Made by a program: the position numbers and the translations under genes. The notes below the pieces were generated by a model. That model had not been told where the DNA came from. It saw only the letters and a program-made list of their open reading frames with translations, and did not search any database. From NCBI RefSeq assembly GCF_021650975.2, contig NZ_CP091285.1:1922001-1986000 (forward strand): DNA of 64,000 nucleotides, read 5' to 3'. The DNA is from Flavobacterium jumunjinense (GTDB lineage Bacteria; Bacteroidota; Bacteroidia; Flavobacteriales; Flavobacteriaceae). Below, piece after piece: positions 14,445 to 36,335 of the stretch (positions are counted from its first letter, which is position 1; each line of letters starts with the position of its first letter).

Positions 14445-15473
14445 ATGAAGTCTAAAGCGACATTAAAACAAATTGCAAAAGAATTAGGAGTTTCAATATC
14501 AACAGTATCTAAAGCGTTAAATGATAGTTCAGAAATTAGTAAAGCAACAAAAGATAAGATTAAGGAATTTGCAGAGTTGAAAAACTATACGCCAAATTTG
14601 ATGGCTAAAAATCTCAAGTATCAAAAAACAAATACTATTGGTGTTGTTTTGCCAAATATTCTAAATTCTTTTTTTGCGAAAGTTTTCAGTGGTATTGAAA
14701 ATGTGGCTAGGGAGAAAGGATATAATCTTATTACAGCTATTTCGAATGAATCTTTAGAAAGGGAAAAGCAATTAATGGAAATGCTTAATAATGGTGCAGT
14801 GGATGGATTTATTTTGTCTGTTGCAGAAGAAACGCAGTTGTCTAAAAAATTAGATCATTATAATGCAATCATTAGAAGTGGAACGCCAATTGTTTTGTTT
14901 GATAGAATTGTTGATCTGCCTAAATCAGATAAAGTGATTGTTGATGATTTAGATTCTGCAATAGACGCAACTCAGCATTTAATAAATATTGGCTGTAAAA
15001 AAATAGCATTAATTTCTACTATTGATAACTTGAGTGTTGGAAAGTTGCGTTTTGAAGGCTATAAAAAAGCGCTAGAAAATAATGAAATACAAATTGATGA
15101 AGAATTAATTATTGTAGATAATGATATGGATTCATTCGATGATAAATTAAAACGAATCATGCAACAGCGATTGGTTGATGGTGTTTTTGCTTTAGATGAG
15201 CATGGATTAACTAAAGTACATAAAATTGCAATTCAAGAAGGGATTGCAATTCCTGAAGAAATTAATATTTTAGGTTTTGCTGATGGTGTTTGGTCTAGAA
15301 GAATGTCTCCTAGTATTTCAACGGTTAGTCAGCACGCACCAGAAATAGGTGAGAAGTCTGCAACACTATTAATTGATAGATTACTAAATAAAGACGAAGA
15401 AAAAGCATTCGATTATAAAACAATTATTATTAAAACAGAATTGAGGCAAAGAGAATCTACAAAAAAACTATAA
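14445..15473 (+). CDS. LacI-family transcriptional regulator
   Basis: 342 aa. An N-terminal helix-turn-helix (TLKQIAKELGVSISTVSKALN, residues 5-25) and hinge are followed by a periplasmic-binding-protein-like sugar domain (TNTIGVVLPNILNSFF; DGFILSVAEET; PIVLFDRIVD; ISTVSQHAPEIG). Bacteroidota members of this type usually govern a carbohydrate locus, yet no sugar uptake or hydrolase gene is adjacent, so the target is probably elsewhere. Its last 6 bases overlap the end of the convergent PnuC-like gene. Confidence 0.95.
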   Translation: MKSKATLKQIAKELGVSISTVSKALNDSSEISKATKDKIKEFAELKNYTPNLMAKNLKYQKTNTIGVVLPNILNSFFAKVFSGIENVAREKGYNLITAISNESLEREKQLMEMLNNGAVDGFILSVAEETQLSKKLDHYNAIIRSGTPIVLFDRIVDLPKSDKVIVDDLDSAIDATQHLINIGCKKIALISTIDNLSVGKLRFEGYKKALENNEIQIDEELIIVDNDMDSFDDKLKRIMQQRLVDGVFALDEHGLTKVHKIAIQEGIAIPEEINILGFADGVWSRRMSPSISTVSQHAPEIGEKSATLLIDRLLNKDEEKAFDYKTIIIKTELRQRESTKKL

Positions 15474-16199
15474 TTGTTTTTTTTGATCATCATTCCAAGT
15501 AATATAACCGATTATAGCATTGAAAAAATAAAATATATATTTAGCTGTATTAGCAATATTGAGCAATAGCAGATTTTGAATAATTTTTGTAAGATTGTAA
15601 AATTGCCATAAAAACCAATTGTCAGGATACATTCTAGCAGTATTGAAAGTACCTCCAAATGTTAGTCCAGCAGGAATTGAAATAGCAAAATAAAGTTTCC
15701 AATCGATTGTGTTGGTTGACAAATATTTAAAAGCAATATAATTAAGAAGAAAAGAGAAGAAGAACCCAAGAATAATATTTCGGTAAAAAATAAAATCTAT
15801 TTTTCGTAGTACTTTACTTTTTTTCCAAGAATTAAAAACAAGATAATTACCTATAAAAGAAACTGGGTAGGTTAATATCGCTCCAGCATTTCCGAGTAAA
15901 TAATCTATTGAACCACTCAAGAAAGTATTGCAAGTAGTTATAAAATTTCCAATATTATTTTTCTTCGTTACAAGTCTGTTTCCAATCATCGAAAAACTGG
16001 TATTAATAATAGAAACATAACCTAATAGAAACATATAATTTTTTCCATTGAAAGAAAAATTATAAACTGTTTTATGATACCCTAGGACTATAGAAGCTGT
16101 TATTACTATGATTAAACCAATAATATCTAGATAAGTACTATTTGTTATTGATTTAATTTGTGTTGTAAGCGCATTGGAAATTTTCAGTTTAAAAATCAT
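15468..16199 (-). CDS. pnuC: PnuC-like nicotinamide riboside/vitamin transporter
   Basis: 243 aa, about seven hydrophobic segments. The fold signature of PnuC proteins is visible: an early segment ending in GNRLVTKKNNIGNF, a central GNAGAILTYPVSFIGNYLVF with a Trp and basic stop, and the C-terminal NWFLWQFYNL ... YFFNAIIGYITW pair of helices. The family carries out facilitated uptake of nicotinamide riboside or related vitamins, trapped by phosphorylation inside. An N-terminal soluble stretch of about 20 residues is slightly longer than usual. It overlaps the upstream serine hydrolase by one base (TAATG). Substrate cannot be decided. Confidence 0.7.
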   Translation of the reverse strand: MIFKLKISNALTTQIKSITNSTYLDIIGLIIVITASIVLGYHKTVYNFSFNGKNYMFLLGYVSIINTSFSMIGNRLVTKKNNIGNFITTCNTFLSGSIDYLLGNAGAILTYPVSFIGNYLVFNSWKKSKVLRKIDFIFYRNIILGFFFSFLLNYIAFKYLSTNTIDWKLYFAISIPAGLTFGGTFNTARMYPDNWFLWQFYNLTKIIQNLLLLNIANTAKYIFYFFNAIIGYITWNDDQKKQL

Positions 16200-17512
16200 T
16201 ATTCCTTAGTAAAGTTAAATTTTGCCCCACCTTGATGCAAAATTAGACTTTTTTCTTGAAAGACGATTTGAATTCCAGCAGGAGAATATATAAAAGTTTT
16301 CTCGTCTTTAAAAGTTAGTGGAAATGCACTTTGTCCTGTTGCTTGCGCGAAAAAATCACCTTCTTTTTCAAAAATAGTTAATTTTAAAGCAATGTCATTG
16401 GAAGAATAGGTTCCAATGTGTTTAGAAATTAATGCTTTATCTATTTTTTTGAAATTTGGAAAAGGAAAAGGAATTTTATAATAAATACTTAAAATACCAA
16501 TCATAATGTCGTTTGTATTGTAGTTATCGCCATTAACAATAAGAGAAATACTAATTTTTTCTGTCGGATAATAGCCTATGTTAGATCTGAAACTCTCTAT
16601 TCCTCCAGTATGTCCATAAAACCGTCTTTCTCCAAACGGAAATTGAATCAAAGCTTTACCATAGCTGTCTTTTAGTGTTTTCATAGCTTCTAGAGAGCTT
16701 TGCTTAATTAGCTTTCCATCAAATAAGGCATAGATAAATTTTGTTAAATCAGAGGGAGTAGAAACTAACGCACCAGCAGAATATGCAATCTCGTTTTTCC
16801 ATTCTTCCGTTTTTTTCCATTGGTTATCATTAAAAAGAAAAGAATAGCTTTCGTTATTAGAAATCTGTACCCCATTTGAAGGATAAAACGTGTTTTTCAA
16901 TCCAATTTTTGAAACAATTCTTTTTTCTATATTTTCAGCAAAAGATTTTTTAGTGATTTGTTCAATAATTCCACCAAGGAGATAATAATTAGAATTACTA
17001 TACGCATATTTTGAATTTGGTTCAAAATTAGATTCATAATTGCTTATTTTAGTATAAATAGCTTCTTTCAAATCTGGAGCATTCAATTCTGCTTTTGTAA
17101 TAGAATCCTGGTTGATATAATCAGGAATACCAGTTCTTTGGTGTAATAAATGGTCTATAGTTATTTTGTCTGCATTCTTTACATTAGGAAAATAAGAAGT
17201 TAGTTTAGTGGCTAACGACAATTTCTTTTCTTCTACAAGCTGCATAATTATTACCGCAGTAAATGTTTTTGTAATAGATCCAATTTTATATTTGGTTTCA
17301 CTATTTGCTTTAGTCCTGCTCTTCGTGTCGCTATAACCATAGGCTTTAGAAAAGACAATTTTGTTTCCTTCTTGAATCGCCAACGACCCCATGAATTTAT
17401 TGTTTTTTTCTAAATGACTTAAAAGGCTATCAATTCTTTGTAGTCTTGGTTCTACTTGAGCAGAAACTGTAATTCCAAAATAAAGGAATGAAAGTAAAAG
17501 AAGTTTTTTCAT
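16199..17512 (-). CDS. Serine hydrolase of the beta-lactamase / penicillin-binding class C family
   Basis: 437 aa, exported: the signal peptide ends near VSAQ (residue 19). The three active-site motifs are visible: SITK (SxxK) near residue 79, YSNSN (YxN) near 165 and the GHTGG box near 302. A C-terminal beta domain (HIGTYSSNDIALKLTIFEKEG) resembles the accessory domain of EstB/D-aminopeptidase-like relatives. Probably a periplasmic esterase, peptidase or cell-wall-active enzyme rather than an antibiotic-resistance gene. Coupled to the PnuC-like gene by a one-base overlap. Confidence 0.9.
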   Translation of the reverse strand: MKKLLLLSFLYFGITVSAQVEPRLQRIDSLLSHLEKNNKFMGSLAIQEGNKIVFSKAYGYSDTKSRTKANSETKYKIGSITKTFTAVIIMQLVEEKKLSLATKLTSYFPNVKNADKITIDHLLHQRTGIPDYINQDSITKAELNAPDLKEAIYTKISNYESNFEPNSKYAYSNSNYYLLGGIIEQITKKSFAENIEKRIVSKIGLKNTFYPSNGVQISNNESYSFLFNDNQWKKTEEWKNEIAYSAGALVSTPSDLTKFIYALFDGKLIKQSSLEAMKTLKDSYGKALIQFPFGERRFYGHTGGIESFRSNIGYYPTEKISISLIVNGDNYNTNDIMIGILSIYYKIPFPFPNFKKIDKALISKHIGTYSSNDIALKLTIFEKEGDFFAQATGQSAFPLTFKDEKTFIYSPAGIQIVFQEKSLILHQGGAKFNFTKE

Positions 17513-21630: not shown

Positions 21631-21659
21631 AGAGGCTAACTGAAAAGTTAGCCTTTTTT
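21631..21659 (+). terminator. Intrinsic terminator after the HExxH gene
   Basis: GGCTAACT, GAAA loop, AGTTAGCC, then six T, 10 bp after the stop codon. Its T-run touches the stop of the convergent deaminase gene. Confidence 0.9.
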
Positions 21660-22230
21660 AATAAGGATGTTTTATGCTGTCAAAAGATTCATATCTTTTA
21701 AATAAATCATATTGTAATCGAGGATTTGTAGTTTGTTTCAAATTTCTGTAATAATTAAAATCTTTTTTTATAGAAATCAATTTATCTCGCGATTTTTTAG
21801 ATAAACCAAAAATTACATTGGAAATATCATATTCCTCAATTAATCCTCTACACATTTTACATGGCTCATAAGTTGTTATTAAATATAATTTATTTCTATC
21901 TAAAGCTTTAAATTTTTTATAACCAATTTTATCAAAACAATTTTTAACTGCATTTATTTCTGCATGTCCTGATGGATTATTATTCTTTGAGACATCATTA
22001 TATCCTTCACCTATTATGCTATCATTATATATTAACAAACTTGCGACAGGAACGTCATTTGAAGGAATACATTTTTCTGCTAAACTAGAAAGTCTTTTTT
22101 CATAATTTGTAATGTTTTTATTAGTTGAAAAAAGATACAAATTTGTGACAATAAGATAAATTAGGATAGTAAAAAAGGTGCCAAGAAATATATAAAAAAC
22201 AGGCCAAAACAATTTTTTTAAAAAATTCAT
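21658..22230 (-). CDS. Membrane-anchored cytidine/deoxycytidylate deaminase-fold protein
   Basis: 190 aa. One transmembrane helix at about 9-31, then a deaminase domain from residue 45. The zinc site is complete: GHAEINAV (His and catalytic Glu) near residue 89 and the PCKMC pair near 118-122, matching HAE...PCxxC of the CDA/TadA superfamily. The strand order (VPVASLLIYNDSIIGEGYN before, NVIFGL after) is closer to TadA or guanine-deaminase-like members. Enzymes of this fold are normally soluble, so the membrane anchor is unusual. The product is intact; substrate unknown. Divergent from the glycosyltransferase at 22.3 kb. Confidence 0.8.
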   Translation of the reverse strand: MNFLKKLFWPVFYIFLGTFFTILIYLIVTNLYLFSTNKNITNYEKRLSSLAEKCIPSNDVPVASLLIYNDSIIGEGYNDVSKNNNPSGHAEINAVKNCFDKIGYKKFKALDRNKLYLITTYEPCKMCRGLIEEYDISNVIFGLSKKSRDKLISIKKDFNYYRNLKQTTNPRLQYDLFKRYESFDSIKHPY

Positions 22231-22259: not shown

Positions 22260-22304
22260 ATGAAAATACTTTTAATTAATTTCTATCAAATTATAAAAAA
22301 GTAA
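22260..22304 (+). other. Short upstream frame with A_AAA_AAG slippery site preceding the glycosyltransferase
   Basis: ATG at 22260 encodes MKILLINFYQIIKK and stops at TAA (22302-22304), which overlaps the ATG of the downstream frame (TAATG). The last codons are ATA AAA AAG TAA, so the heptamer A_AAA_AAG stands in frame directly before the stop. A -1 slip continues as GTA ATG CAT into the glycosyltransferase. The peptide MKILLINFYQ looks like the true N-terminal strand of a GT-B enzyme. Confidence 0.7.
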
Positions 22305-23392
22305 TGCATAATAAAACGTTAGTAGATTTATTGTATTATACATTTAGTTTATCTAAAAGAGAAAATGTAATAGGCTCTTGTAATAGTACTCTTGGATACC
22401 TTTATAAGATAAGTGCCTTTTTTAGAGTAATTTCTGTTACTAGAACAACAAATAATTTTGAAAATATTCGAATGAATAATATTGATTTATGTTTTTATAA
22501 AACAAAACCATTATCAAAATGGAAAATACCTTTTAAATTTAATTCTTTTATAAAGTCTTTGCAACCTGATTATATTTTGGCGCATGGTTTTGGGTTTGTA
22601 CATTATTTAATTTTTTTAAAAATAATACTTCCGAAAACTAAAATCGTCTTACAAAGCAATGGTTTTGCTCCTAAACCTAAGGGGATTAAAAAATACATTT
22701 ATAAAGTTTCTGATGTATTTATTGATGGTTATTTATTTACGGGTATTGAAAATGCAAAGCCTTGGTATGAAAATAAAATCCTTACAAAAAATAAAATTTT
22801 TTCTGTAATGGAAGGCTCAACCTACTTTACGTTTTCTGGAAATGAAAACCGAAAGTCAAATACTTTTCTTTGGGTAGGAAGATTAGACACGAATAAAGAT
22901 CCATTAACAATACTAAAAGCATTTGATCGTTTTCTTATTATTCAAGAGGATGCAGTTTTAACAATGGTTTTTCATGAGAATCATTTATTAGAAGAAGTAA
23001 AAGATTTTATTTTGAATAGTGAAAAACTTAAAAATGCAGTTATAATAAAAGGATATGTAGCGCATCATTTATTAGAAAAAATATATAATGAAAATGAGTT
23101 CTTTATATTAGGTTCGCATTATGAAGGCAGTGGATATGCTTTAGTTGAGGCAATGGCTTGTGGTTGTATTCCAATAATAACAAATATAGCTCCATTTAGG
23201 TACATGACGAATGAAGGAGAATGTGCTTTTCTATTTACACCAAATAATGAAGAAGAATTGTTTTTTCAACTAATAAAATCAAACGATTGTGATTTATTAG
23301 TTATACAAGAAAAGGTATTAGAGCAATTTGAAAATAGATTGTCTTTTGAAGCCATAGCTAAAGCCATAAAAAATATTTTTCAGTCATTATAA
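22304..23392 (+). CDS. Glycosyltransferase family 4-type, GT-B fold
   Basis: 362 aa in the annotated frame, or about 377 aa if joined by -1 frameshifting to the upstream frame starting at 22260. C-terminal nucleotide-sugar half: LWVGRLDTNKDPLTILKAF (about 188-206) and the EX7E motif in SHYEGSGYALVEAMACGC (about 268-285). The N-terminal acceptor domain as annotated lacks its first beta strand, which the upstream frame would supply. Low GC even for this window. It converges with the last gene of the radical SAM cluster (13-bp overlap) and probably serves the same glycan pathway (inference). Confidence 0.87.
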   Translation: MHNKTLVDLLYYTFSLSKRENVIGSCNSTLGYLYKISAFFRVISVTRTTNNFENIRMNNIDLCFYKTKPLSKWKIPFKFNSFIKSLQPDYILAHGFGFVHYLIFLKIILPKTKIVLQSNGFAPKPKGIKKYIYKVSDVFIDGYLFTGIENAKPWYENKILTKNKIFSVMEGSTYFTFSGNENRKSNTFLWVGRLDTNKDPLTILKAFDRFLIIQEDAVLTMVFHENHLLEEVKDFILNSEKLKNAVIIKGYVAHHLLEKIYNENEFFILGSHYEGSGYALVEAMACGCIPIITNIAPFRYMTNEGECAFLFTPNNEEELFFQLIKSNDCDLLVIQEKVLEQFENRLSFEAIAKAIKNIFQSL

Positions 23393-24426
23393 AAATGATT
23401 ATAAATCACATTAATATTATCTTCCATTCTAAAGACCTGAATCCGTTTAGGTGCTATTAATTGGTTTAAAAGATTTTTTAATTTAGTACCTATATCGTTT
23501 TTATTTTCAGAATAATAAAAATTTTCAATACTTTTAGTGTTTTCTATGTCAATTGTGCTTACAACTTTGCATCCAGAATATAACGCTTCTTGTATTACTG
23601 TGCTATTACCTTCATATTTTGATGTATGCAGGAAAATTTTTGAATTATTTAAATATTTGAGAGTTTTTTTATGAGTCAAAAAACCAGTAAAAATTATATT
23701 GTCAGATAATCCAAGTTTTTTTACCTTATCTAAAAGTAATTGTTTTTCTTCACCATCACCAATAATTACTACGTTTAATTTTTTTATGTTTAAATGTGAA
23801 ATAATATCAATAAAGAAAGAATAGTTTTTTAAAGCACCAAGATTTCCAATGCCAACTATATCTATTTCTCTGTTATCTAAATTTAATTTTGGAAAAACAT
23901 CAGGATTAATAAAAACATTTGAAATTTTCCTTACATTATAGTTGAAGTTTTTGTTAAACAAAACTTTTTGTTTTTCTGAAATCATTACCAAATCATCTTC
24001 CTTTAATTTTAATATTTTGACATATTTATTATTTTTTTTTGCATCTTGACCTTGAAGCCAGACGAGTAGTTTTATCTTAAATATTTTACTAATTATAAAA
24101 CCAACTAATGAAGCTTCTCTGTACCAAAAACATATTATCCCATCGTAATTGTTTTTTCTGTGAAGAGAGGTTGCCTTTAAGATTGTTTTTAAAATTGTCG
24201 GAATTTGTTTTAGTTTAGAATTAAATTTTCCACCAATAGAGTGAATATTAACTTTATCCAATTGATAGTTCTTTTTGGAAAAAGGATACATCATACTTAT
24301 CACATCAATCTCTATATTCTTTTCATTTGCAAAGCTTTTAGTAAATTGACTAATAAAGGGTACAACATTATCTTCATGAATGTTTTTTGGAAAAATAGGT
24401 GTAATAAATAATAATTTTTTAGTCAT
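23380..24426 (-). CDS. Glycosyltransferase family 4-type (last gene of the radical SAM/GT operon)
   Basis: 348 aa GT-B enzyme. N-terminal LLFITPIFPKN strand; IVGIGNLGALKNYSFFIDII and VVIIGDGEEKQLL near the interdomain hinge; TSKYEGNSTVIQEALYSGC carries the EX7E catalytic-nucleotide motif near residue 283. It adds a sugar to an acceptor on the cytoplasmic side. The start ATG overlaps the ABC gene stop by 4 nt (ATGA). Convergent with the plus-strand glycosyltransferase. Confidence 0.92.
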   Translation of the reverse strand: MTKKLLFITPIFPKNIHEDNVVPFISQFTKSFANEKNIEIDVISMMYPFSKKNYQLDKVNIHSIGGKFNSKLKQIPTILKTILKATSLHRKNNYDGIICFWYREASLVGFIISKIFKIKLLVWLQGQDAKKNNKYVKILKLKEDDLVMISEKQKVLFNKNFNYNVRKISNVFINPDVFPKLNLDNREIDIVGIGNLGALKNYSFFIDIISHLNIKKLNVVIIGDGEEKQLLLDKVKKLGLSDNIIFTGFLTHKKTLKYLNNSKIFLHTSKYEGNSTVIQEALYSGCKVVSTIDIENTKSIENFYYSENKNDIGTKLKNLLNQLIAPKRIQVFRMEDNINVIYNHFYND

Positions 24427-26108
24427 AGCTTTTTTAAAATTCGATTTTCTAAGATATACTTTTTGTTTGAAAAATTGGAAGCTTCATCGTTATGTGAAAC
24501 TACAATTACAGAAAGTTTTTTTTCAAATGTTAATGTTTGAATATATTTAAGAATATCTTTTTCTAAAGATTGGTTTAATTGATTTGTAGCTTCATCTAAC
24601 AACAAGACTTTTGGTTTAAAGAATAATGCTCGTGCTATTGCAATTCTTTGCTTTTGACCACCTGATATTGTTTTGCTATCTAATAATAAATAACTATTTA
24701 TTTTTTCAGGTAACGTATTTATCCAATCATATAAATCAAGAGCAATTAATATTTTATTTAAGAATTCATAATCTATATTACTTTCATTTGTAAAAAGCGT
24801 TATGTTTTCTCGAATCGTTCCTTGAAATAGAAATGGTTGTTGAGATACATAACCAATAAAGTCAAAAATAGTATTGTTGGAATTGGCAGAAATATTATCA
24901 ATATATATATCCCCATTTTTAGGGCTTAATAATCCAGAAATTATATGTAAAAGAGTACTTTTTCCTTGGCCAGATTTTCCTGATATACAAATAAAATCTC
25001 CTAAATCAATCTGAAATGAAATATTTTCTAAAATGTTCTTTTTATTGAACTCAATACTAATATTCTTTAACTCTATTCTGTTATTGAAGGTTAGCTTACT
25101 GGTGGTTCTAATATTAGATTTGTTATAACTAGATAATATTTCAACACAATTTAGATTTGTTTTAATATCTATGAAAGAATTTAAAATTTTATTAAAAGAA
25201 GGTAAAATTTTAATGCTTGCACCTGCAAAAAAAGAAATTAATATTAAGGTATTCTTATCTGCTTGATTTATCATATAAAAAAGAATCATTGATGATAAAC
25301 CGATAATGATTAGTATTTCGAAATACCTTGAATTTGATTGTTTAAAAGCCGATAATAATGCAAGTTGTCTATTGTGAGATTCATTTGAATTTTGAAATTT
25401 TTTTTGAAATTCTTGCTCACTTTTAGTTGTTTTAATCTCAATAAGTCCGTAAAAAATATTATTAATATTTTTTAAATTATCTTCATATAACCTAACTATT
25501 GTCTCATTAAAAAAAACAATTTTTTTCTGTTTAATTTTTAACAACAAAAGGACAAATAATATTAGTGACAAAAGGGAAAATAATGTAATAGTCGGATTAT
25601 ACAATATACCAATTGAAATAATAAATAGTAGAATAATTAGTTCAGATAACAATGTGTAAAATGAAAATAGAATATTAGTTGAAAACACAATAGGTAATTG
25701 AAAAACATCTCTAAAAAATGCATTCTTATCTTTTTTAGTATAGTTAATATAGCTATTATGTATATACTCATTCATCAATTTTTCAGATATTAAGGAAGAT
25801 ATACTATAGATGAATAAAGATTGAAATCTTAGAATTACAGATTGAAGGATGTTTTTTATAATATAAAAAGCAATTAATGCAATAATCAAAAGAACAGTAA
25901 TCTTATTATTAAGATTTATATTAAATGTTGAAAATAGAACAGAACTTAAACGGTCTTTATCAAGTACAATTAAAAACAGTGGTACTAATAATGTTAAAGA
26001 AATAAAATCGAGAAAAGTATTAATTAGGAAGTAAACTATAAAAACAGGAAGTTTTTTCCTTTTAGAATGAGGAATTAATAAATAGGATTTTAAAATTAAT
26101 GTTTTCAA
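24423..26108 (-). CDS. ABC exporter, fused permease and ATPase (MsbA/PglK type)
   Basis: 561 aa half-transporter. Residues 1-300 have about five or six membrane spans; the ATPase has Walker A GKSGQGKSTLL (about 364-374), a Q-loop in YVSQQPFLFQG, signature SGGQKQR (about 466-472) and Walker B VLLLDEATNQL, ending with the switch VVSHND. The fused exporter type that flips lipid-linked glycans or lipids fits the neighbouring glycosyltransferases. The frame begins with TTG at 26108, and its TTGA overlaps the upstream stop; no better ATG is near. Confidence 0.93.
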   Translation of the reverse strand: MKTLILKSYLLIPHSKRKKLPVFIVYFLINTFLDFISLTLLVPLFLIVLDKDRLSSVLFSTFNINLNNKITVLLIIALIAFYIIKNILQSVILRFQSLFIYSISSLISEKLMNEYIHNSYINYTKKDKNAFFRDVFQLPIVFSTNILFSFYTLLSELIILLFIISIGILYNPTITLFSLLSLILFVLLLLKIKQKKIVFFNETIVRLYEDNLKNINNIFYGLIEIKTTKSEQEFQKKFQNSNESHNRQLALLSAFKQSNSRYFEILIIIGLSSMILFYMINQADKNTLILISFFAGASIKILPSFNKILNSFIDIKTNLNCVEILSSYNKSNIRTTSKLTFNNRIELKNISIEFNKKNILENISFQIDLGDFICISGKSGQGKSTLLHIISGLLSPKNGDIYIDNISANSNNTIFDFIGYVSQQPFLFQGTIRENITLFTNESNIDYEFLNKILIALDLYDWINTLPEKINSYLLLDSKTISGGQKQRIAIARALFFKPKVLLLDEATNQLNQSLEKDILKYIQTLTFEKKLSVIVVSHNDEASNFSNKKYILENRILKKL

Positions 26109-27085
26109 TTTTTTTTATTGTAAATATTTCGATTCATTATAATTCCAATAATCAATTTTAAGTTATATAAAAGTAATTTTTTTTCTAATTTAAATATTGA
26201 ATAAATTATATTTCCATTTAATGAGTTTAAAAGATAAAGTAAGTTAATAAAATTAAATCTTTTATTTTTAAGCATAATAAAGTGTAATGCAGAGACTCTA
26301 TAAAAGTATGCTTTTTTATTGTTTATTCTATTTGTTTTGTCTTTATGGTGATACGCTAAAGAGTTTTTCACAACATAAATTTCTGAATTGTTTTTTAAAG
26401 CAAAATCATAGTTGTCTCCAATACCGTTTTTATAAAATGCTGTTTCAAATTTTATTTTAGTATTTCTAATAACCGAAGCTCCTAAACCATATATGGGAGT
26501 TTTAAAAACAGGAGTTTTATAATCAATTACAATTGGCCAACCTGATTTAGCAATTCTGTTCCCTTTTTTTAAATAAAAGGCAATAAATTTTTGAATAATT
26601 TTATTTTTTGAATAATCTTCTTTTTTCAGGTCTACCCATACAGACAATCCAAAAATATAGTTGAAAATTAATTTAAGAAAAGGAATTCTCTTTTCTGAAT
26701 ATTTCCATTCATCATTTCTCTTTTCATAGATTAAACCACTAGTCATATTAACGGATGGGTTTTCATCTAGATAAGTTATTAAATTCTCTATATAATTTTC
26801 AGAAATTTCAATATCGTCATCGCATAAAAAAATAAATTCTGTTTTACATTGTTCAATACCAATATTTCTTTGCAAACATACAGAAGGTGAAGAATGTATA
26901 ATTTTTATATCTAATTGAGTAAAAAAAAGTTGGTTGCTATTTAATTTCTCATCGCTTGAATCAACAATTATAATCTCTTTTGGAAGATAGGTTTGTTTGG
27001 AAATAGAATTTAAAAGTCTATTTAAAGAATTTATTCTATTTCTTGTAGGTATTACTATTGTTATTTGAGATTTTTTTTCTTTCAT
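26105..27085 (-). CDS. Glycosyltransferase family 2
   Basis: 326 aa. The N-terminal GT-A nucleotide-sugar domain has QITIVIPTRNR, then EIIIVDSSDE and the DxD-like FLCDDDIEIS near residue 92. A central GWPIVIDYKTPVFKTPIYG stretch and GDNYDFALK follow, with a C-terminal membrane-associating region. It has ATGA overlaps with its neighbours on both sides, so it is part of the coupled operon. Donor sugar and acceptor cannot be read from the sequence. Confidence 0.92.
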   Translation of the reverse strand: MKEKKSQITIVIPTRNRINSLNRLLNSISKQTYLPKEIIIVDSSDEKLNSNQLFFTQLDIKIIHSSPSVCLQRNIGIEQCKTEFIFLCDDDIEISENYIENLITYLDENPSVNMTSGLIYEKRNDEWKYSEKRIPFLKLIFNYIFGLSVWVDLKKEDYSKNKIIQKFIAFYLKKGNRIAKSGWPIVIDYKTPVFKTPIYGLGASVIRNTKIKFETAFYKNGIGDNYDFALKNNSEIYVVKNSLAYHHKDKTNRINNKKAYFYRVSALHFIMLKNKRFNFINLLYLLNSLNGNIIYSIFKLEKKLLLYNLKLIIGIIMNRNIYNKKN

Positions 27086-27789
27086 TCTGGGTTTTTACAA
27101 AATAGATTTCCATGTAAGTTTTTTATAGGTAAACCTTTAATTATTTCTTTTATCTCTGTATTTTTTATCCATTTTTTTAAATGAAAATTTTGATTTTCGT
27201 TTAATGTATAATTGAAATCAATATTTTGATTTTTGAATAAATCTATTATTTTAAGAGTATCAGCGATTAATTTTCCTGTAAATTCAAATTCTATTATTGG
27301 TATTTGGTAATTTAAATTTGATAAAATTTCAAATTCATAGCCTTCAACATCGATTTTGCAATATTTTGGTAATCCATATGTTTCAATTAAATGATTAAAT
27401 GATTTAACTTCGACAAATTCATAGTCTTTCCAATATACTTTTTCAGTGGTGTAATTTTTAATGAACTTTTTTGATAGAGATGCAATTTCACTATAGTTTC
27501 CTAGATATAATTTTTTAATTTCATTTTTTGCACCAACAGCATATGGGAGATAATTAAAATTAACATTTTTTTGCTTTAACTTTTCTAAATGTAAGTGACA
27601 GGATTTTTGAGGCTCAAAAGCAATAACATTTTCACTAATATTGAGCATGATTTTACTTTTTGCTCCTATATTAGCACCTATATCAAAGCATAAATCTCCA
27701 TTGGAAATAATATTTGAATAAAATTTTATTTCTCTTTTTTTTATTTTTTTTGCAAAAATAATTTTATAAATTTTATTTACTAATTTCAT
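27082..27789 (-). CDS. FkbM-family methyltransferase
   Basis: 235 aa SAM-dependent methyltransferase. Motif I is CFDIGANIGAKSK (about 34-46), followed by VIAFEPQ, YAVGAKNE and the family-typical KIDVEGYEFEIL near residue 146. FkbM proteins O-methylate sugars or polyketides, so methylation of the glycan made by the adjacent transferases is a sound guess. ATGA overlaps at both ends. Confidence 0.92.
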   Translation of the reverse strand: MKLVNKIYKIIFAKKIKKREIKFYSNIISNGDLCFDIGANIGAKSKIMLNISENVIAFEPQKSCHLHLEKLKQKNVNFNYLPYAVGAKNEIKKLYLGNYSEIASLSKKFIKNYTTEKVYWKDYEFVEVKSFNHLIETYGLPKYCKIDVEGYEFEILSNLNYQIPIIEFEFTGKLIADTLKIIDLFKNQNIDFNYTLNENQNFHLKKWIKNTEIKEIIKGLPIKNLHGNLFCKNPE

Positions 27790-29156
27790 CTATTTAACAT
27801 CATCAACCCACTTGCTAAAACAGCTTTTGTCTTATGTTTTAAAGCTTGGGTTATATTCGTACTTTTCTTTTTGTAAAACTCTACTTCGTTTACTACTTTA
27901 CTTACAGCATAATCATAATATTTTCGAGAATAGGTTCGTTTAAAATCAATATCTCTATCTGTTGAGGTTTCCCAGTCAGGAGCAATTGTTATTTGGTTTT
28001 CAATTTCATTATAAAGGGAAGTTCCTTTTATAGGATAGGCTATCGTTATGGTATAATGTGTTGGGTTCGCTTCTTTTAGATACTGAATAGTTTCATGGAT
28101 GTCTTCTTCAGTTTCTCCTGGATAACCTAGCATGATAAATGTTCCCGTTTCAATTCCTAATTGATTGGTTTTCTGAATGGCTTCTTTTACAATATTAACA
28201 TCAACTCGTCTGTCCATTAAATCAATTATTTTTTGCGAACCACTTTCTGCTCCTATCCAAATTCTAAAACAACCCGATTCTTTTAATAATTGTAATATTT
28301 CATCATTTAAACGTTCAGCACGTGTAATACATTCAAACGGTATAATTGTATCTTGTTTAATAACTTCATCATGAAAGGCAGTCAACCATTTGTGACTTAC
28401 TGTGAAAACATCATCAACAAACCAAATAGCATCTGGATTATAAGTTTCTTTAAGCATTTTCATTTCCGCAGCAACTTGATCAGCAGGTCTTCTTCTGTAA
28501 CTTTGCCCGTAAACAGCAGTACTACACCATTTGCAAGTATATGGACAACCTCTTTGTGTAGAAATTGTCATAGAACTTTGACCATGATTTTTTTTCCATG
28601 TATCTAAATAGTTTTGCATATTTATAGCTTCTCTATTTGGTAATGGTAATTCATCTAATTCTTTAATTTTTACTCTTGCAGGTGTTTTTATGACACTATC
28701 ATTTTCTAAAAAAGCAAGACCATTTATAGTTTTAAAATCACCCTTTGAGAGTATTGCTTCATATAATTCGAAAGTTGTTTCTTCACCTTCACCAATCACT
28801 AAAAAATCGGCTCCTGCTTTTAAATAATTTTGAATATTATAAGAAACATCGGGCCCACCAAGTACAATTTTCGGATAATTGTATTTGTCGCTTTTTATAA
28901 TTTTTATCAACTTAATAACTTCAATTTTAGTCATTAAATTGGTATATATGCATATTACTTGTGGTTTTTTAGATAAAATGAAATGTAATTGTTCATCTTG
29001 AGTTGAAAAAGTACTATCAAATACATCGTTAGGAATGTTTTTATTTACTAAATAAGCAGAAACATACAACAAACCCAAAGGAGGGTAGGGCTTCATTATC
29101 TTCTGTTCTTTTGGATCGTCAGAGACATAGTAGGCATGTGTAAATAAAATGCTCAT
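27786..29156 (-). CDS. B12-binding-type radical SAM enzyme (second paralogue)
   Basis: 456 aa. The N-terminal B12-binding-like Rossmann domain (YPPLGLLYVSAYLVNK ... IVLGGPDVS ... FLVIGEGEETT) is followed by the radical SAM barrel with the [4Fe-4S] motif CPYTCKWC (CxxxCxxC) at about 205-212 and WIGAESGSQKI downstream. The cobalamin ligand motif DxHxxG is not apparent, as in many BchE-like proteins. It is clearly paralogous to the gene at 29.9-31.4 kb, sharing the N-terminal HAYY/HSYY start and a C-terminal (K/T)YS-YY block. It could perform a methylation, cyclisation or other C-H chemistry. Confidence 0.9.
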   Translation of the reverse strand: MSILFTHAYYVSDDPKEQKIMKPYPPLGLLYVSAYLVNKNIPNDVFDSTFSTQDEQLHFILSKKPQVICIYTNLMTKIEVIKLIKIIKSDKYNYPKIVLGGPDVSYNIQNYLKAGADFLVIGEGEETTFELYEAILSKGDFKTINGLAFLENDSVIKTPARVKIKELDELPLPNREAINMQNYLDTWKKNHGQSSMTISTQRGCPYTCKWCSTAVYGQSYRRRPADQVAAEMKMLKETYNPDAIWFVDDVFTVSHKWLTAFHDEVIKQDTIIPFECITRAERLNDEILQLLKESGCFRIWIGAESGSQKIIDLMDRRVDVNIVKEAIQKTNQLGIETGTFIMLGYPGETEEDIHETIQYLKEANPTHYTITIAYPIKGTSLYNEIENQITIAPDWETSTDRDIDFKRTYSRKYYDYAVSKVVNEVEFYKKKSTNITQALKHKTKAVLASGLMMLNR

Positions 29157-29929
29157 CGTTTTTCTAAAGTTATAATGTAATGATCTGAATATTTAGAAAG
29201 GAACGACCAATTAGAAGTTGTCTTTTCCAAAAAAAACAAAAAGTTAAATGTTTTTCTTTTATTCTTGAAAAATGGTTCTAAATAAGAAGGAGGTACAAAA
29301 AAACCAATTGGTTTGTATTCTACTAACTTAAAATATTCTTTTGCTAAATTTACAATATCTTTTGGATTATAATAATAAGTGGGTACATTTTCTCCATCTA
29401 CATTTGCAATTGCTACTTCTTTTCTTCGCCTAAGAGCTGTTGAAAACTTACCCTTCAACATGAAATAGAGTTGTTCCCAAATCGTGTTTTTTGGCATAAT
29501 TACTAATGATAACTTTCCCTTTTTATTTAGCGCATTGGAAATAGTGCTAAAGAAATGCTCTATTTCATTTTTAGACAAACAATTTAATCCACCAAAATTT
29601 GAAAAGACTAAATCAAATGTTCCAAAATCTTTTGTTTTACTAATTAAATTAATATCTAGTTGAGCAAAATCTAGGTTTTTATATTGATTTTTTGCTTGCC
29701 CAATTGCAATCATATTTTCAGAAATATCGGTTGCCAACACATTAAAATTTTGTTTCGCTAACCAAATAGCATCCTCGCCAGTTCCACAATTGACTTCCAA
29801 TATATCTTTACAATTACTTAAATGTTTGGTAAGGATTTTGTACACAGAATTTCGTTGTGCTTTTCCAATCAATGTGTCTGTAAAAGATTGGTCGTACGTA
29901 TTTGCAGCGTTATCAAAACTAGCTTCCAT
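29153..29929 (-). CDS. Class I SAM-dependent methyltransferase
   Basis: 258 aa. SAM-binding motif I ILEVNCGTGEDAIWLAK (about 41-57), then VLATDISENMIAIG, and FDLVFSNFGGLNCLSKNE as motif II/post-II. The last 90 residues form a less conserved acceptor region with PPSYLEPFF. It lies between the two radical SAM genes, with a 4-nt ATGA overlap downstream and an 11-nt overlap upstream. Acceptor unknown. Confidence 0.92.
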   Translation of the reverse strand: MEASFDNAANTYDQSFTDTLIGKAQRNSVYKILTKHLSNCKDILEVNCGTGEDAIWLAKQNFNVLATDISENMIAIGQAKNQYKNLDFAQLDINLISKTKDFGTFDLVFSNFGGLNCLSKNEIEHFFSTISNALNKKGKLSLVIMPKNTIWEQLYFMLKGKFSTALRRRKEVAIANVDGENVPTYYYNPKDIVNLAKEYFKLVEYKPIGFFVPPSYLEPFFKNKRKTFNFLFFLEKTTSNWSFLSKYSDHYIITLEKR

Positions 29930-31364
29930 TTTGAAGTGTTTTCAAAGCAACTTTATCCAAATATGCGCTAGGAATATAATAGCCTAATTTTACAATTGAT
30001 TTTATTTTCTGTATTGAAAACGAGAAGTTTTTTAAATTATAAAACCCTTGACTTTTTCGATATTCTTTATGAACAAACCGTTGTAGTTTTCTATAATAAT
30101 TGGAAGAGTAAGTTCCTTTAAACATCATGTCTAAGTCGTCAGAATCTTTCCAATTTGCTTTTAATTGCAAATCATCTTTTACTTTCTCATAGAATTTCGT
30201 TCCAGGTAAAGGATAAGAAACAGAAATGCCAATATTATCAGGTAACAATTCTTTTACCATAGCTATGGTCTTTTCAATATCTTCTTGAGTTTCGGTTAAA
30301 TAACCAAATTGCAAGAAAAAAGCAACTCTAATACTTTTTTGTTTTAGAAGGTAAGTAGCTTCATAAATTTCAGATACTTGAGTTCCTTTGTCCATAGCAT
30401 CCAAAATTTTCTGTGAAGCACTTTCTGCACCAACCCAAACTTCCTCTAATCCAGATTCGGCTAAAGCATCAATAGTATCTTCTTTCAATAGTAAATCTAC
30501 TCGACTTTGAATGAAATACTTAATTGAAATATTTTTTTTCTTTAGTTCTGTATTAAATTCTTGCACCCAATTGGGCTTTAAGCCAAAAATATCGTCACAC
30601 ATCCAAAAACGTTTTACACCAAATTCTTGTTGTAAATATTCAATTTCATTTACAATATATTCAGGTGAATGGGCATTATATCGATTCCCATAAATAGGTT
30701 TTGCACACCAATTGCATTTGTAAGGGCAACCTCTTGTTGTTGCTAAATTTAAGGTGAATTCTTGTCCACTTTGGCTCCAAATGTTTTTATATGCATTTAT
30801 ATTTATCAAATCCCAAGCAGGTAATGGCAATTCATCTAAGTTTTGTAAAACGGTACGTGGCTTAGTTATTATGACTTGTTCATTGACTGTGTAAGCTAAT
30901 CCAGCAATATCTTTTGTTTCTTTATTTTTCTCTAGCGCATTGATTAGTTCTAAAAGCGTAATTTCTCCTTCTCCTTTTATAATGAAATCGGCTCCTTTTT
31001 CTAAATACTCTTTATAATGATCGGTTGAATCGGAACTTGATATTATAACAATACAATTATGTTGTTTTCCATATTGAATCATTTCAAAGCAAGCATCTCT
31101 CATGTTTGTAAGACACATTTTGGTGAGATAATTAAAGCCATCATCATATATAACCAAATAGTTGGGTTTAGATTCTTTTAAAAGTGGTAAGATTGATTTT
31201 GGAGAATCTAATAGGTTTGTGTCAAACAGAGCAACATCATAATTGTTTTTTCTTAATGTTGAAGCCGCATATAGCGTTCCCAAAGGAGGAAAAGGAGTTT
31301 TGTTTTTCCATTGCTTTGGATCAAGCTTATAATAATAGGAATGTGAAAAAAGAATTTTAGACAT
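29919..31364 (-). CDS. B12-binding-type radical SAM enzyme (first paralogue)
   Basis: 481 aa from the ATG at 31364 (MSKILFSHSYYY), chosen because the paralogue downstream starts the same way; the open frame itself allows a start six codons earlier. N-terminal Rossmann-like domain (FPPLGTLYAASTLRKN, FIIKGEGEITLLEL), then CPYKCNWC (CxxxCxxC) at about 212-219 and VWVGAESASQKILD. No DxHxxG cobalamin motif is seen. It overlaps the nucleotidyltransferase stop by 8 nt. Two such enzymes side by side imply two consecutive or related radical steps on the product. Confidence 0.9.
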   Translation of the reverse strand: MSKILFSHSYYYKLDPKQWKNKTPFPPLGTLYAASTLRKNNYDVALFDTNLLDSPKSILPLLKESKPNYLVIYDDGFNYLTKMCLTNMRDACFEMIQYGKQHNCIVIISSSDSTDHYKEYLEKGADFIIKGEGEITLLELINALEKNKETKDIAGLAYTVNEQVIITKPRTVLQNLDELPLPAWDLININAYKNIWSQSGQEFTLNLATTRGCPYKCNWCAKPIYGNRYNAHSPEYIVNEIEYLQQEFGVKRFWMCDDIFGLKPNWVQEFNTELKKKNISIKYFIQSRVDLLLKEDTIDALAESGLEEVWVGAESASQKILDAMDKGTQVSEIYEATYLLKQKSIRVAFFLQFGYLTETQEDIEKTIAMVKELLPDNIGISVSYPLPGTKFYEKVKDDLQLKANWKDSDDLDMMFKGTYSSNYYRKLQRFVHKEYRKSQGFYNLKNFSFSIQKIKSIVKLGYYIPSAYLDKVALKTLQNGS

Positions 31365-32262
31365 GTTCTTTTGGTATATCAATATTATGTTTTTCTTTAA
31401 TTTCTAAATACTTAGTATTCAATAAATCAATTACTTTCTTTTGGAAATTCGATGGATGGTGTTTAGAAACTTTTTTAGACGATTTAAATGCAATAGCGAA
31501 ATCTTCGGGTTTCATTTTGTTTCTAAATTTTATTTTCCAAACATTGAAAGTAAGTGTAAAACAGAACTTTTCAACAAGTACTCCAAATCTTTTTTGAAGA
31601 ATAGTTTCTAATAATCGAGCAATCCAACTAGTTTCTACTGTTTCTTTTTCGAGGCTTTTATTCGTCTTGTTAGGAAGTAGGTTTCTATTCCAGTTATTGT
31701 TTTCAAAAAAACGATTAAAAACATCACCTTGTATAGGTATTAAAGTCGCTATTTCTGTTGCAGTGAAAATATTTTTTTCTTCAATTTCTAAATTATCAGA
31801 ACTTATAAAATAATTTAAACAGAAATATTTTCTTGAGTTGAACAGAAATATTTTTTTAAAAATAACCAAAAATGTTCTACAAGTCCATAAATGATTGGGT
31901 TTTGAAATAATGAAAAAATCAACATCACTATTCGCATCAAAATAACCTTTAGATAGCGAACCAGAAATTGATACACCTTCTACAAAAGGAAAATATTTTT
32001 TAATAAAATTGCCTTTCTTTTTCGCTTTTACTAATGCTTTTATTGCGTTCTTATTTCCTACTATTCTATTTGTAACATTTTCTTCTGTTAAGTTAGGATG
32101 AAAAAATACATCAGTTTGTGTTATGATTTTTTTTTCTAAAGCATCTTTCAATTCTTTTTCTACATCTTCCATTTTTTCATGAAGCGAGTATAGAAAAATC
32201 TCTTCTTTTTTTAATGGATGATTAAAAATTGAAAAATATAATAGTGGTCTTAAAATTTTCAA
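31357..32262 (-). CDS. Nucleotidyltransferase-fold protein (first gene of the cluster)
   Basis: 301 aa. The pol-beta-type nucleotidyltransferase motif GSLSKGYFDANSDVDFFI (about 101-118) has the GSxxxG and paired Asp expected for metal binding. An N-terminal winged-helix-like segment (YFSIFNHPLKKEEIFLYSL) precedes it, and the C-terminal half is helical without a motif I know. The frame opens with TTG at 32262; no ATG is found nearby. A TACATTTG promoter element lies 32 bp upstream. The protein could transfer a nucleotide to a sugar, lipid or protein; the substrate is unknown. Confidence 0.8.
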   Translation of the reverse strand: MKILRPLLYFSIFNHPLKKEEIFLYSLHEKMEDVEKELKDALEKKIITQTDVFFHPNLTEENVTNRIVGNKNAIKALVKAKKKGNFIKKYFPFVEGVSISGSLSKGYFDANSDVDFFIISKPNHLWTCRTFLVIFKKIFLFNSRKYFCLNYFISSDNLEIEEKNIFTATEIATLIPIQGDVFNRFFENNNWNRNLLPNKTNKSLEKETVETSWIARLLETILQKRFGVLVEKFCFTLTFNVWKIKFRNKMKPEDFAIAFKSSKKVSKHHPSNFQKKVIDLLNTKYLEIKEKHNIDIPKEHV

Positions 32263-32293
32263 TGCAATTTTAGTTAAGTTTTTTCAAATATAT

Positions 32294-32970: not shown

Positions 32971-32975
32971 GTTTT

Positions 32976-33512: not shown

Positions 33513-36335
33513 TTAATGTGCTTCTAGCCAGTTTTTACCAAGCCCTAAATCGACAGTAAGTGGCACTTCTAATTTGAAGGCATTTTCCATCTCGTGTTTT
33601 ATCATGGGTTGAATCTTTTCAAGTTCACTATTGTGAACATCAAATACAAGCTCATCATGTACTTGTAGAAGCATTTTAGATTGCCAATTTTCATCATTTA
33701 AGCGATTGTGTATGTTTATCATTGCAATCTTAATAATATCAGCAGCGCTTCCTTGTATTGGTGCGTTTACAGCATTTCTTTCAGCAGCACCTCGAACAAC
33801 CGCATTTGCAGAATTAATATCTTTTAAATAACGTCTTCTTCCTAATACAGTTTGAACATAACCATTTTCTCTAGCAAAATCAATTTGCTCTTGAATATAA
33901 GACTTTAATTTAGGGTATGTTTTGTAATATGCATCAATAAGATCTGCACTTTCACTTCTCGATAAATCAGTTTGATTACTAAGACCAAAAGCTGAAACAC
34001 CGTATATAATTCCGAAATTAACAGTTTTAGCATTACTTCTTTGCTCTTTAGTAACCTCTTCTAGAGCAACATTGAATACTTTTGAAGCTGTACTTTTATG
34101 AATGTCTTCACCGTTTTTAAAAGCTTCAATCATAGTTGTTTCTCCACTAAGTGCTGCAATAATTCGAAGTTCAATTTGAGAATAATCGGCAGCTAGTAAT
34201 GTGTAATTTTCATTTTTAGCTGTGAATGCTTTACGAATTTGTCTACCTCTTTCTGTTCGAATGGGAATGTTTTGAAGGTTTGGATTGTTAGAACTTAAAC
34301 GACCTGTCGCAGCAACTGTTTGCATGTAATCGGTATGTACTCGTGTTGTTTTAGGGTCAACCTGATTCGGAAGTGCATCTACATAGGTGTTTTGAAGTTT
34401 TACTAATTGTCTCCATTCTAATATGTAACGAACAATCTCATTGTCTTTTGCTAAATAGCTTAAAATTTCTTCTCCAGTTGCATATTGACCTGTTTTCGTT
34501 TTCTTTTGTTTTGTGCCACCAATTTTAAGTTTGTCAAATAATATATCGCCTAATTGTTTTGGAGAAGCTAAATTGAATGTTTCTCCTGCGATTTCATATA
34601 TTTTTTGTTCAAAGGAATTAATCTCGATTTGCATTTCTGAAGACATAGATTTAAGAAATGCTACATCCAATTGAATTCCTTCTCGCTCCATTGAAGCTAG
34701 AACTTTAACTAATGGAATTTCAATATCATCAAATAGTTTTTTTGTACCCACTTTTTCAAGAATAGGAGAGAAATGTTCTTTCAGTTGAAAGGTAATGTCA
34801 GCATCTTCTACAGCATATTCCTTCACATCTTCAATGCTAATGTCACGCATTGATTTTTGATTCTTTCCCTTTTTCCCTATTAAATCTACAATTGGTTTAG
34901 GAGAATATTTTAAATAAGTTTCACTTAAAATATCCATATTATGACGCATATCTGGGTTGATTAAATAATGAGCAATCATAGTATCAAAAAAATTGCCTTT
35001 TACTTGAATTCCATAGTTCGCTAAAATCTTTAAATCATATTTTAAATTTTGACCAATTTTTTCAATTTCTTCATTTTCAAAGAAAGGAATAAATTTATTC
35101 GCTAACTGTTGTGCTTCTTCTTGGTTTTCTGGGAAGGGTACATAGAAACCTTTTCCTTTTTCCCATGAAAATGCAATACCTACTAATGTTGCATTTAAAG
35201 CGTCTAAACCTGTAGTTTCTGTGTCAAAACAAACAGATTGTTGCTTTTCTAAATTTTGGAGTAATAATTTTGTTGCTAAATCACCTTGAATAATTTGATA
35301 AAAATGTTCGGTATTTTCTAATGAAGCATAGTAGGAAGTAGTTGTGTTTTCTGTTGCTTCAGTATCATTAAAACCAAACAAATCAAACTGATTTTCATCT
35401 TTTGGAGGTGTTTTTTTAGTATTATTTCCGTTTGTGTCTTCAGTAGTATTAGAATCATTAAATATTTTATCGAATTGCGTTTTCATTTGACGAAATTCTA
35501 ATTCCATAAAAATCGCATCTGTTTTTTCAACATCTGGTCTAGATAATTCGTAATCTTTCTCATTAAAAGTAACAGGACAATCGAGTAAAATTGTTGCTAA
35601 TTTTTTAGAAAGAATTCCCTTCTCTTTGTTAGCTTCAATATTCTCTTTCATTTTTCCTTTAAGCTCATGTGTGCTTTCTAGAAGCTTTTCCATAGAACCA
35701 TATTGAGCTAGGAATTTTTTAGCTGTCTTTTCTCCTACACCAGGTAAGCCTGGAATATTATCTACAGCATCCCCCATCATTCCTAAAAAGTCAATTACTT
35801 GAAGCGGATGTTCAATTTCAAATTTAGCTTGCACTTCTGGAACGCCCCATATTTCGATACCATTTCCCATTCTTGCAGGACGATACATGAAGATGTTTTC
35901 TGATACTAACTGTGCAAAATCCTTATCGGGTGTAACCATAAATACTTGAAAACCTTCTTTTTCAGCTTGTTTAGCAAGTGTACCAATCAAATCATCTGCT
36001 TCAAAACCAGCTTCTTCTATAATTGGAATATGCATTGCGTTTAATAGATCTTGAATGTACGGAATTGCTATTTTTATAGCTTCGGGTGTTTCGTCTCTAT
36101 TGGCTTTGTATTCTTCAAACATCTCTAATCGAAATGTACTTCCACCTTTATCGAAAGCTACGGCTAAGTGGTCTGGCTTCTCTCTTTTGATAACATCCAT
36201 TAAAGAATTCATGAATCCCATAATAGCTGATGTATTCATTCCTTTTGAATTAATTCTAGGGTTTTTTATGAATGCATAATACCCTCTAAATATTAAAGCA
36301 TAAGCATCAAGTAGAAATAATCGTTTTTGCGACAT
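33513..36335 (-). CDS. polA: DNA polymerase I
   Basis: 940 aa, full length. N-terminal 5'-3' exonuclease (LFLLDAYALIFRGYYAF, MGDAVDNIPGLPGVGEKTA), a middle 3'-5' exonuclease with an intact DxE motif in CFDTETTGL near residue 370 and YAVEDADITF, and the C-terminal polymerase domain with motif A DYSQIELR, the O-helix RSNAKTVNFGIIYG and motif C QVHDELVFD. Proofreading residues therefore seem present, unlike in some polA homologues. A charged linker of about 60 residues after the flap nuclease (TNGNNTKKTPPKDEN) is more variable. Role: gap filling and Okazaki fragment processing. Confidence 0.99.
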   Translation of the reverse strand: MSQKRLFLLDAYALIFRGYYAFIKNPRINSKGMNTSAIMGFMNSLMDVIKREKPDHLAVAFDKGGSTFRLEMFEEYKANRDETPEAIKIAIPYIQDLLNAMHIPIIEEAGFEADDLIGTLAKQAEKEGFQVFMVTPDKDFAQLVSENIFMYRPARMGNGIEIWGVPEVQAKFEIEHPLQVIDFLGMMGDAVDNIPGLPGVGEKTAKKFLAQYGSMEKLLESTHELKGKMKENIEANKEKGILSKKLATILLDCPVTFNEKDYELSRPDVEKTDAIFMELEFRQMKTQFDKIFNDSNTTEDTNGNNTKKTPPKDENQFDLFGFNDTEATENTTTSYYASLENTEHFYQIIQGDLATKLLLQNLEKQQSVCFDTETTGLDALNATLVGIAFSWEKGKGFYVPFPENQEEAQQLANKFIPFFENEEIEKIGQNLKYDLKILANYGIQVKGNFFDTMIAHYLINPDMRHNMDILSETYLKYSPKPIVDLIGKKGKNQKSMRDISIEDVKEYAVEDADITFQLKEHFSPILEKVGTKKLFDDIEIPLVKVLASMEREGIQLDVAFLKSMSSEMQIEINSFEQKIYEIAGETFNLASPKQLGDILFDKLKIGGTKQKKTKTGQYATGEEILSYLAKDNEIVRYILEWRQLVKLQNTYVDALPNQVDPKTTRVHTDYMQTVAATGRLSSNNPNLQNIPIRTERGRQIRKAFTAKNENYTLLAADYSQIELRIIAALSGETTMIEAFKNGEDIHKSTASKVFNVALEEVTKEQRSNAKTVNFGIIYGVSAFGLSNQTDLSRSESADLIDAYYKTYPKLKSYIQEQIDFARENGYVQTVLGRRRYLKDINSANAVVRGAAERNAVNAPIQGSAADIIKIAMINIHNRLNDENWQSKMLLQVHDELVFDVHNSELEKIQPMIKHEMENAFKLEVPLTVDLGLGKNWLEAH

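Follow-up and report, generated by a model that had tools for sequence, protein, structure and literature searches.

An apparently constant radical SAM core with exchangeable cargo in a candidate lipid-linked glycan locus of Flavobacterium jumunjinense

Results

Gene content of the operon

We analysed an eight-gene operon in a stretch of 64,000 nucleotides (the window, whose positions are used below) from Flavobacterium jumunjinense (assembly GCF_021650975.2, contig NZ_CP091285.1, positions 1,922,001 to 1,986,000 of the forward strand). The host genome comprises 4.68 Mb in two contigs. A preliminary description, made from the sequence alone, had claimed eight overlapping genes on one strand, and we recovered all eight open reading frames (ORFs) on the minus strand with overlaps of 4-11 nt. 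The first gene encodes a nucleotidyltransferase (NTase; 31357..32262) that has an extra N-terminal domain, starts with TTG and matches PF01909 at 22.8 bits against a cut-off of 21. It is followed by a B12-type radical S-adenosylmethionine (SAM) enzyme (rSAM1; 29919..31364; PF04055, 72 bits), a class I SAM methyltransferase (MT; 29153..29929; PF13649, Methyltransf_25) and a second B12-type radical SAM enzyme (rSAM2; 27786..29156; PF04055, 93 bits). These four genes are referred to as the core and the other four as the cargo. The cargo encodes an FkbM-family methyltransferase (27082..27789; TIGR01444, 76 bits, above the cut-off of 37.7), a GT2 glycosyltransferase (26105..27085; PF00535), a PglK-like ATP-binding cassette (ABC) lipid-oligosaccharide flippase (24423..26108) and a GT4 glycosyltransferase (23380..24426; PF00534, 77 bits). 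The domains named earlier were borne out by Pfam and NCBIfam, which gave NTP_transf_2, Radical_SAM with a B12-binding-like domain twice, Methyltransf_25, FkbM, GT2, ABC and GT1/GT4.

Counted from the NTase onward, the overlaps are 8, 11, 4, 4, 4, 4 and 4 nt when the start of rSAM1 is placed at the ATG (31364) and not at the TTG lying upstream (31382). The NTase start codon, TTG at 32262, coincides with the first methionine of 19 relatives, whose starts were picked mechanically as the first ATG, GTG or TTG. Upstream of the NTase, a candidate Bacteroidetes-type -7 promoter box, TATATTTG (32285..32292, minus strand), was read by eye and assigned by the Bacteroidetes -7 consensus; no good -33 element was seen by eye near it. 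A single promoter for all eight genes, as proposed in the preliminary description, is unproven.

Conservation of the core genes

We compared the window with the loci of the best 80 of 426 rSAM1 relatives. The resulting set of 81 loci leans toward close kin: nearly all of the fetched loci are titled Flavobacteriaceae or kin, and the closest named rSAM1 relative among these best 80 is that of Flavobacterium jejuense (85% identity). ORFs were filtered mechanically, longest first, and then grouped into gene families by single linkage of BLAST matches. The order NTase-rSAM1-MT-rSAM2 is consecutive in at least 57 of the 81 loci and NTase-rSAM1-MT in at least 65; both counts are lower bounds because the ORF filter lost the NTase at some loci. 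By comparison, just 2 of the 81 loci, the window and Flavobacterium sp. J49 (L013), have the complete FkbM-GT2-ABC-GT4 cargo after the core. The eight genes thus do not form one conserved pathway unit, as had been supposed; judged by sequence comparison, the first four are a constant core and the last four an exchangeable cargo.

For alignments we used 19 relatives, taken as every third of the 56 loci that have four core genes of normal length. Identity to the window is 67-85% for rSAM1, 68-86% for rSAM2, 46-73% for MT and 43-64% for the NTase. The residues SGxLSK...D...D.D are invariant in the NTase alignment, and one regular expression matched this motif in 63 of 73 family members. The best match of the NTase in a solved-structure search had an E-value of only 0.084, and the names among the best 120 of 4809 matches to its alignment in a protein search were uninformative. 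The MT falls into two subtypes, separated by a border of 44% identity to the window that was chosen after the data were seen. Of the 74 loci with subtype A (≥44%), 73 also have rSAM2; none of the six with subtype B does, and one of those six (L026) stops 0.6 kb past the MT. This co-occurrence suggests that MT and rSAM2 may share one substrate.

Three loci from metagenome bins titled Bifidobacterium breve (L017), Sphingobacterium thalpophilum (L026) and Lutibacter flavus (L033) carry a Flavobacterium-type rSAM1 (74-76% identity) that sits among Flavobacterium on the rSAM1 tree; the labels of at least L017 and L026 look wrong.

Cargo exchange and flippase types

The run GT2-ABC-GT4 was found in six of the 81 loci. 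Among individual cargo families, FkbM occurs in 9 loci, GT2 in 7, GT4 in 30 and GT4b, a further glycosyltransferase family, in 9, all 9 of which also hold the ABC flippase. A glycosyltransferase family with Pfam support is present in 71 loci, or in 73 when families c5 and c30 are added; these two were named GT-C-like by inference, and a solved-structure search with c5 gave one match at E 0.46. Other recurrent families are GT87 (18 loci), a deacetylase (17) and a GDSL-esterase (16), and further cargo elsewhere includes GT-C-like, GNAT and ASST families and extra radical SAM and methyltransferase families. Adjacent loci on the rSAM1 tree (a quick tree, LG+G4) can differ in cargo, as do the window and L004, L009 and L010, and L013 and L014.

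Two side observations concern recurrent cargo families. All 21 members of family c14 (e.g., L015:14413-15537) contain a haem-c-type CxxCH motif, its representative had no Pfam match at E 0.001, and the GT87 family is present in 16 of its 21 loci. The c22 GT2 family occurs in 11 loci, and 10 of these also have the phosphorylase-superfamily family c24 (e.g., L031:15837-16589), whose product may remove 5'-deoxyadenosine or set free a base. An HpnG-like role for the phosphorylase family (10 loci) was rejected, as one representative matched DeoD-type best and HpnG at 18.5 bits.

The preliminary description had called the ABC protein an exporter. It is an ABC transporter, and it is better named a lipid-oligosaccharide flippase. 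It resembles PglK of Campylobacter N-glycosylation as a half-size ABC transporter that aligns end to end in profile comparison (family profile positions 7-563 on PglK residues 2-562; 6hrc/5c73). PglK is also its best NCBIfam match, at 202.9 bits, below the cut-off of 1000, and the remainder of the pgl set was not identified. The other recurrent transporter family, c8, is a probable flippase of the multidrug/oligosaccharidyl-lipid/polysaccharide (MOP) type, judging from its sequence. One or the other was found in 47 of the 81 loci: the PglK-like ABC in 22 and c8 in 25, with no locus holding both and 34 holding neither. This exclusion has a Fisher p of 8e-5, or of 4e-5 when restricted to those 67 loci that have ≥7 kb downstream, both uncorrected for kinship, and is as expected if each locus needs one lipid-oligosaccharide flippase. 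Across the 47 loci on the rSAM1 tree, flippase type changes at least 14 times, against a mean of 15.8 (range 11-21) for shuffled labels, and 43 of 200 shuffles gave 14 changes or fewer. Flippase type therefore appears to switch almost at random over the tree.

Base composition agrees with replacement of the cargo. The FkbM, GT2, ABC and GT4 genes have 22-24% guanine plus cytosine (GC), whereas rSAM1, MT and rSAM2 have 29-31%, near the 32.5% of polA; the NTase has 25.5%. The earlier impression of an AT-rich part at 22-28 kb that may have been transferred thus holds for the cargo, for which transfer or replacement is supported, and not for the core, and the AT-rich part can be drawn more finely by gene.

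A chromosomal slot between polA and rplM

The operon lies beside polA (33513..36335, minus strand), which forms the left border of an island. The right border consists of genes for a beta-lactamase-fold protein, a PnuC-like transporter and a LacI regulator (14445..17512, from a Pfam scan of the window), beyond which lies rplM (13772-14227). We compared this slot in the 28 of 39 genus-level genomes that have polA and rplM on one contig and strand; the other 11 lack a gene or have the two on different contigs or opposite strands. The distance from polA to rplM is 9.9-19.3 kb in the five genomes with a core or a remnant. Of the 23 genomes without a core, 22 have 1.4-4.8 kb there and the other (G022), which is rearranged, has 69.9 kb. 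One genome (G345) was counted with the core group though all it retains is a broken NTase and cargo. Its slot remnant (L152) reads polA, broken NTase, GT2, SPASM radical SAM, rSAM3 and MT3; rSAM1-MT-rSAM2 was not found there, and the rest of the broken NTase matches another contig. A polA relative lies inside the fetched stretch in 46 of the 81 loci. Among ORFs of ≥90 residues in four core-less slots (L177-L180), we identified LacI, beta-lactamase-fold, PnuC-like and SdpI-like proteins and one without a match, and no ORF matched a glycosyltransferase. Genes of three of these families (beta-lactamase-fold, pnuC and lacI) also separate the island from rplM in the window.

Two further genes adjoin the operon: a convergent GT4 glycosyltransferase (GT4b; 22304..23392, plus strand; PF00534, 80.6 bits) and a membrane-anchored TadA/guanine-deaminase-like protein (21658..22230, minus strand; PF00383, 64.6 bits) with a single hydrophobic segment at its N-terminus. 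Both are probably island members because Flavobacterium sp. J49 keeps all ten genes in identical order. Relatives of the TadA-like protein were found in J49 and near the core in three survey loci (L154, L158, L163; see below), and a profile search of the pooled ORFs found no others. Also within the island, 18373-21621 encodes a 1082-residue protein with a C-terminal sorting domain of the type IX secretion system and a HEVTH metallopeptidase-like motif in its translation. The intergenic region between the NTase and polA (32300-33500) contains a repeated motif and two related plus-strand ORF remnants (32712-32882 and 33207-33398) that have 'VKDxDGNNxYD...SVKTDVDLEF' in common and are probably decayed duplicates.

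Radical SAM enzymes and cobalamin

The two radical SAM enzymes are paralogues with 35% identity. CxxxCxxC is present in 20 of 20 aligned sequences of each, window included, and the cobalamin-ligand motif DxHxxG in 0 of 20 of each, as had been noted for the window. PF02310 (B12-binding; cut-off 32.1) is matched by rSAM2 at 41.7 bits, above the cut-off, and by rSAM1 at 25.5 bits, below it. The missing motif is no argument against cobalamin, because OxsB, TsrM and TokK are cobalamin-binding enzymes that lack a histidine ligand (PMC13331322). The host genome encodes a MetH-type sequence in two ORFs, which makes cobalamin use plausible. This metH is split (C1:912848-916386), with model domains 2-325 and 323-1181.

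The best solved relatives of rSAM1 by sequence are 9ccb (MgmA) and 6fd2 (AprD4) of the apramycin pathway, with OxsB, CysS and TokK also matched. MgmA (9ccb) is described as a cobalamin-containing methylase (PMC11796369). The window enzymes share a B12-binding-like domain, which in rSAM1 scores below the Pfam cut-off, and a CxxxCxxC radical SAM core with MgmA, 6fd2, OxsB, BchE, HpnJ and PhpK, and MgmA, at 450 residues, is close to them in length. They differ from the named cobalamin-dependent families in scoring below every cut-off among the 25 best NCBIfam models for each enzyme, including those for BchE (the best for rSAM1, 174.5 of 481 bits), HpnJ, PhpK, HpnR, the ladderane model TIGR04072 and TIGR04295. 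Across the 81 loci, families of B12-type radical SAM enzymes (rSAM1/rSAM2, c9 and c16) contribute three genes in 41 loci and four in one.

Several candidate assignments were tried and rejected. For the hopanoid pathway, no squalene-hopene cyclase was found in the host genome (TIGR01507, E 0.001), a search in which no control genome passed the cut-off. For a phosphonate or P-methyl pathway, considered from the similarity to PhpK, no phosphoenolpyruvate mutase was found there (TIGR02320, E 0.001), with controls matching below the cut-off only. For anti-phage defence, PADLOC was run on six window proteins and two from relatives, cargo genes excluded, and gave only a radical SAM model and one for a methyltransferase, which we took as generic.

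Distribution of the core

The core is patchy. A strong match was found in 3 of 36 other genomes of the genus, and 19 of 299 genomes of the family matched at E 1e-120, the host included. A search with the NTase profile gave matches in 29 of 395 genomes at E 1e-10, again including the host. We surveyed 25 of the 28 others (G233, G180 and G076 left out), two of which are same-genus loci (L152 and L162). The NTase lies ≤3 kb from rSAM1 in 23 of the 25 survey loci; the two are 4.3 kb apart in L155, where the stretch ends inside rSAM1. MT lies ≤3 kb from rSAM1 in 20. Two loci have fusions: L161 encodes rSAM1 and MT as one 727-residue protein, and L167 a 662-residue protein with an N-terminal GT4 and a C-terminal NTase. 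By BLAST, 17 of the 25 have a glycosyltransferase match. A GT9 gene was seen in one survey locus and a Wzy_C ligase-type gene in one (L158), a locus that has no glycosyltransferase match.

Discussion

We think it somewhat probable that the operon belongs to a polymorphic lipid-linked glycan locus, in which a constant core is responsible for making or altering one special sugar, or a unit derived from one, and the cargo is swapped behind it. The sequences themselves show the constancy of the core, the exchange of cargo, the mutual exclusion of the two flippase families and the slot between polA and rplM, whereas we infer the glycan nature of the product, its carrier, all of the chemistry and surface display. 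The NTase would activate or cap a sugar-like unit, rSAM1 and rSAM2 would rework its carbon skeleton, probably by C-methylation, deoxygenation or a ring change, and MT would add an ordinary methyl group. Cargo glycosyltransferases would extend this unit with further sugars on a carrier of polyprenyl type. The product would then be moved over the inner membrane to the periplasm by a flippase, which is the PglK-like ABC protein here and probably of MOP type elsewhere. The cargo has been replaced many times behind an unchanged core, in the style of O-antigen loci. The preliminary description had offered a glycan or glycolipid pathway or a novel secondary metabolite, and the glycan option gains support from the swappable glycosyltransferases, the PglK-like flippase and the fusions of core genes with each other and with a glycosyltransferase. 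We extend the proposal only tentatively, and with more doubt than belief, to the claim that the NTase-rSAM1-MT core, which several Bacteroidota families retain, produces a hitherto unknown sugar or linker by radical SAM chemistry, and that this unit is the constant anchor for an entire class of surface glycoconjugates to which each species attaches an exchangeable glycan of its own.

Several observations weigh against a glycan locus of this kind. No initiating phosphoglycosyltransferase is among the ten window proteins scanned, and no named or solved relative in NCBIfam or among solved structures reveals the substrate of the radical SAM enzymes. The MOP identity of c8 is based on size, about 10 hydrophobic segments and a match to PF01943 in 1 of 13 members, and a solved-structure search with c8 found no relative. 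Most survey loci lack an rSAM2 of the window type. Eight of the 25 had no glycosyltransferase match in a BLAST comparison with nine reference families, which is not a full annotation. Ten neighbours sampled in L154, L160, L161, L164 and L165 gave no glycosyltransferase match either; four were matchless, and those identified were a histidine kinase, ROK, MFS, a RelA/SpoT enzyme, a phosphoesterase and an HlyD protein. Among the 81 loci, 8-10 lack a glycosyltransferase, and for five of these the stretch is cut short at 4-15 kb. The core may accordingly stand outside a glycan cluster in the survey loci without glycosyltransferases.

These loci, in which NTase and rSAM1 have no glycosyltransferase match nearby, favour an alternative that we consider unlikely, in which the core is an independent modification unit whose target is a lipid, protein, RNA or cofactor and which has no more than a transcript and a slot in common with a variable glycan cluster. 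The near-random distribution of cargo type relative to the core tree points the same way. Against such independence stand the GT4-NTase fusion, the glycosyltransferase matches in 17 of 25 survey loci and 71-73 of 81 family-level loci, and the short overlaps that run through the whole window operon. We regard as improbable to a greater degree that the small-molecule option of the preliminary description is right and the core builds a secondary metabolite that GT2 and GT4 glycosylate and the ABC protein exports; we give it very little credence. Antibiotic pathways are indeed the source of several of the solved proteins closest to rSAM1 (6fd2, OxsB, CysS, TokK), but the ABC family aligns with PglK and never shares a locus with c8, and polysaccharide-type genes recur in relatives; no search for polyketide synthase or nonribosomal peptide synthetase genes was made.

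The locus might instead be a flavobacterial form of the Bacteroidota general protein O-glycosylation locus (of the type of LFG, the locus of fragilis glycosylation), its product being the outer part of protein O-glycans, which seems to us a poor though not negligible prospect. The source on this system (PMC12871550) describes a Bacteroides locus with metG and wzx first and two conserved glycosyltransferases last, a layout not conserved over the whole phylum. Constant genes frame variable glycosyltransferases and a flippase in both loci, and Bacteroidota O-glycans are commonly methylated (PMC12871550). However, the window locus lies beside polA rather than metG, and the best metG match of the host genome is ~440 kb from the operon and adjoins an EamA gene and a LanC-like gene. 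The constant part here is the radical-SAM/NTase/MT core, the two conserved terminal glycosyltransferases were not seen at the window locus, and the core is patchy whereas O-glycosylation is described as widespread in the phylum (PMC12871550). As a separate observation, large ORFs lie next to the LanC-like gene beside metG (L176:10249-16703), which could be a lanthipeptide cluster.

O-antigen and capsule loci, whether of the Wzx/Wzy or the ABC type, occupy a fixed chromosomal slot and exchange their cargo in a serotype-like manner. The locus analysed here has the fixed slot and the cargo exchange in common with them; its constant part is radical-SAM/NTase/MT, whereas theirs consists of priming or sugar-nucleotide genes. 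A literature search, with subscription papers mostly outside its scope, found no description of this gene set, and a radical core within a polymorphic glycan locus is apparently undescribed. Bacterial surface glycans govern encounters with phages, predators and hosts. If the proposal is true, antigen-like variation in Bacteroidota would include a new arrangement in which glycan genes are swapped next to a constant radical core, and this would indicate substrates for several orphan radical SAM families together.

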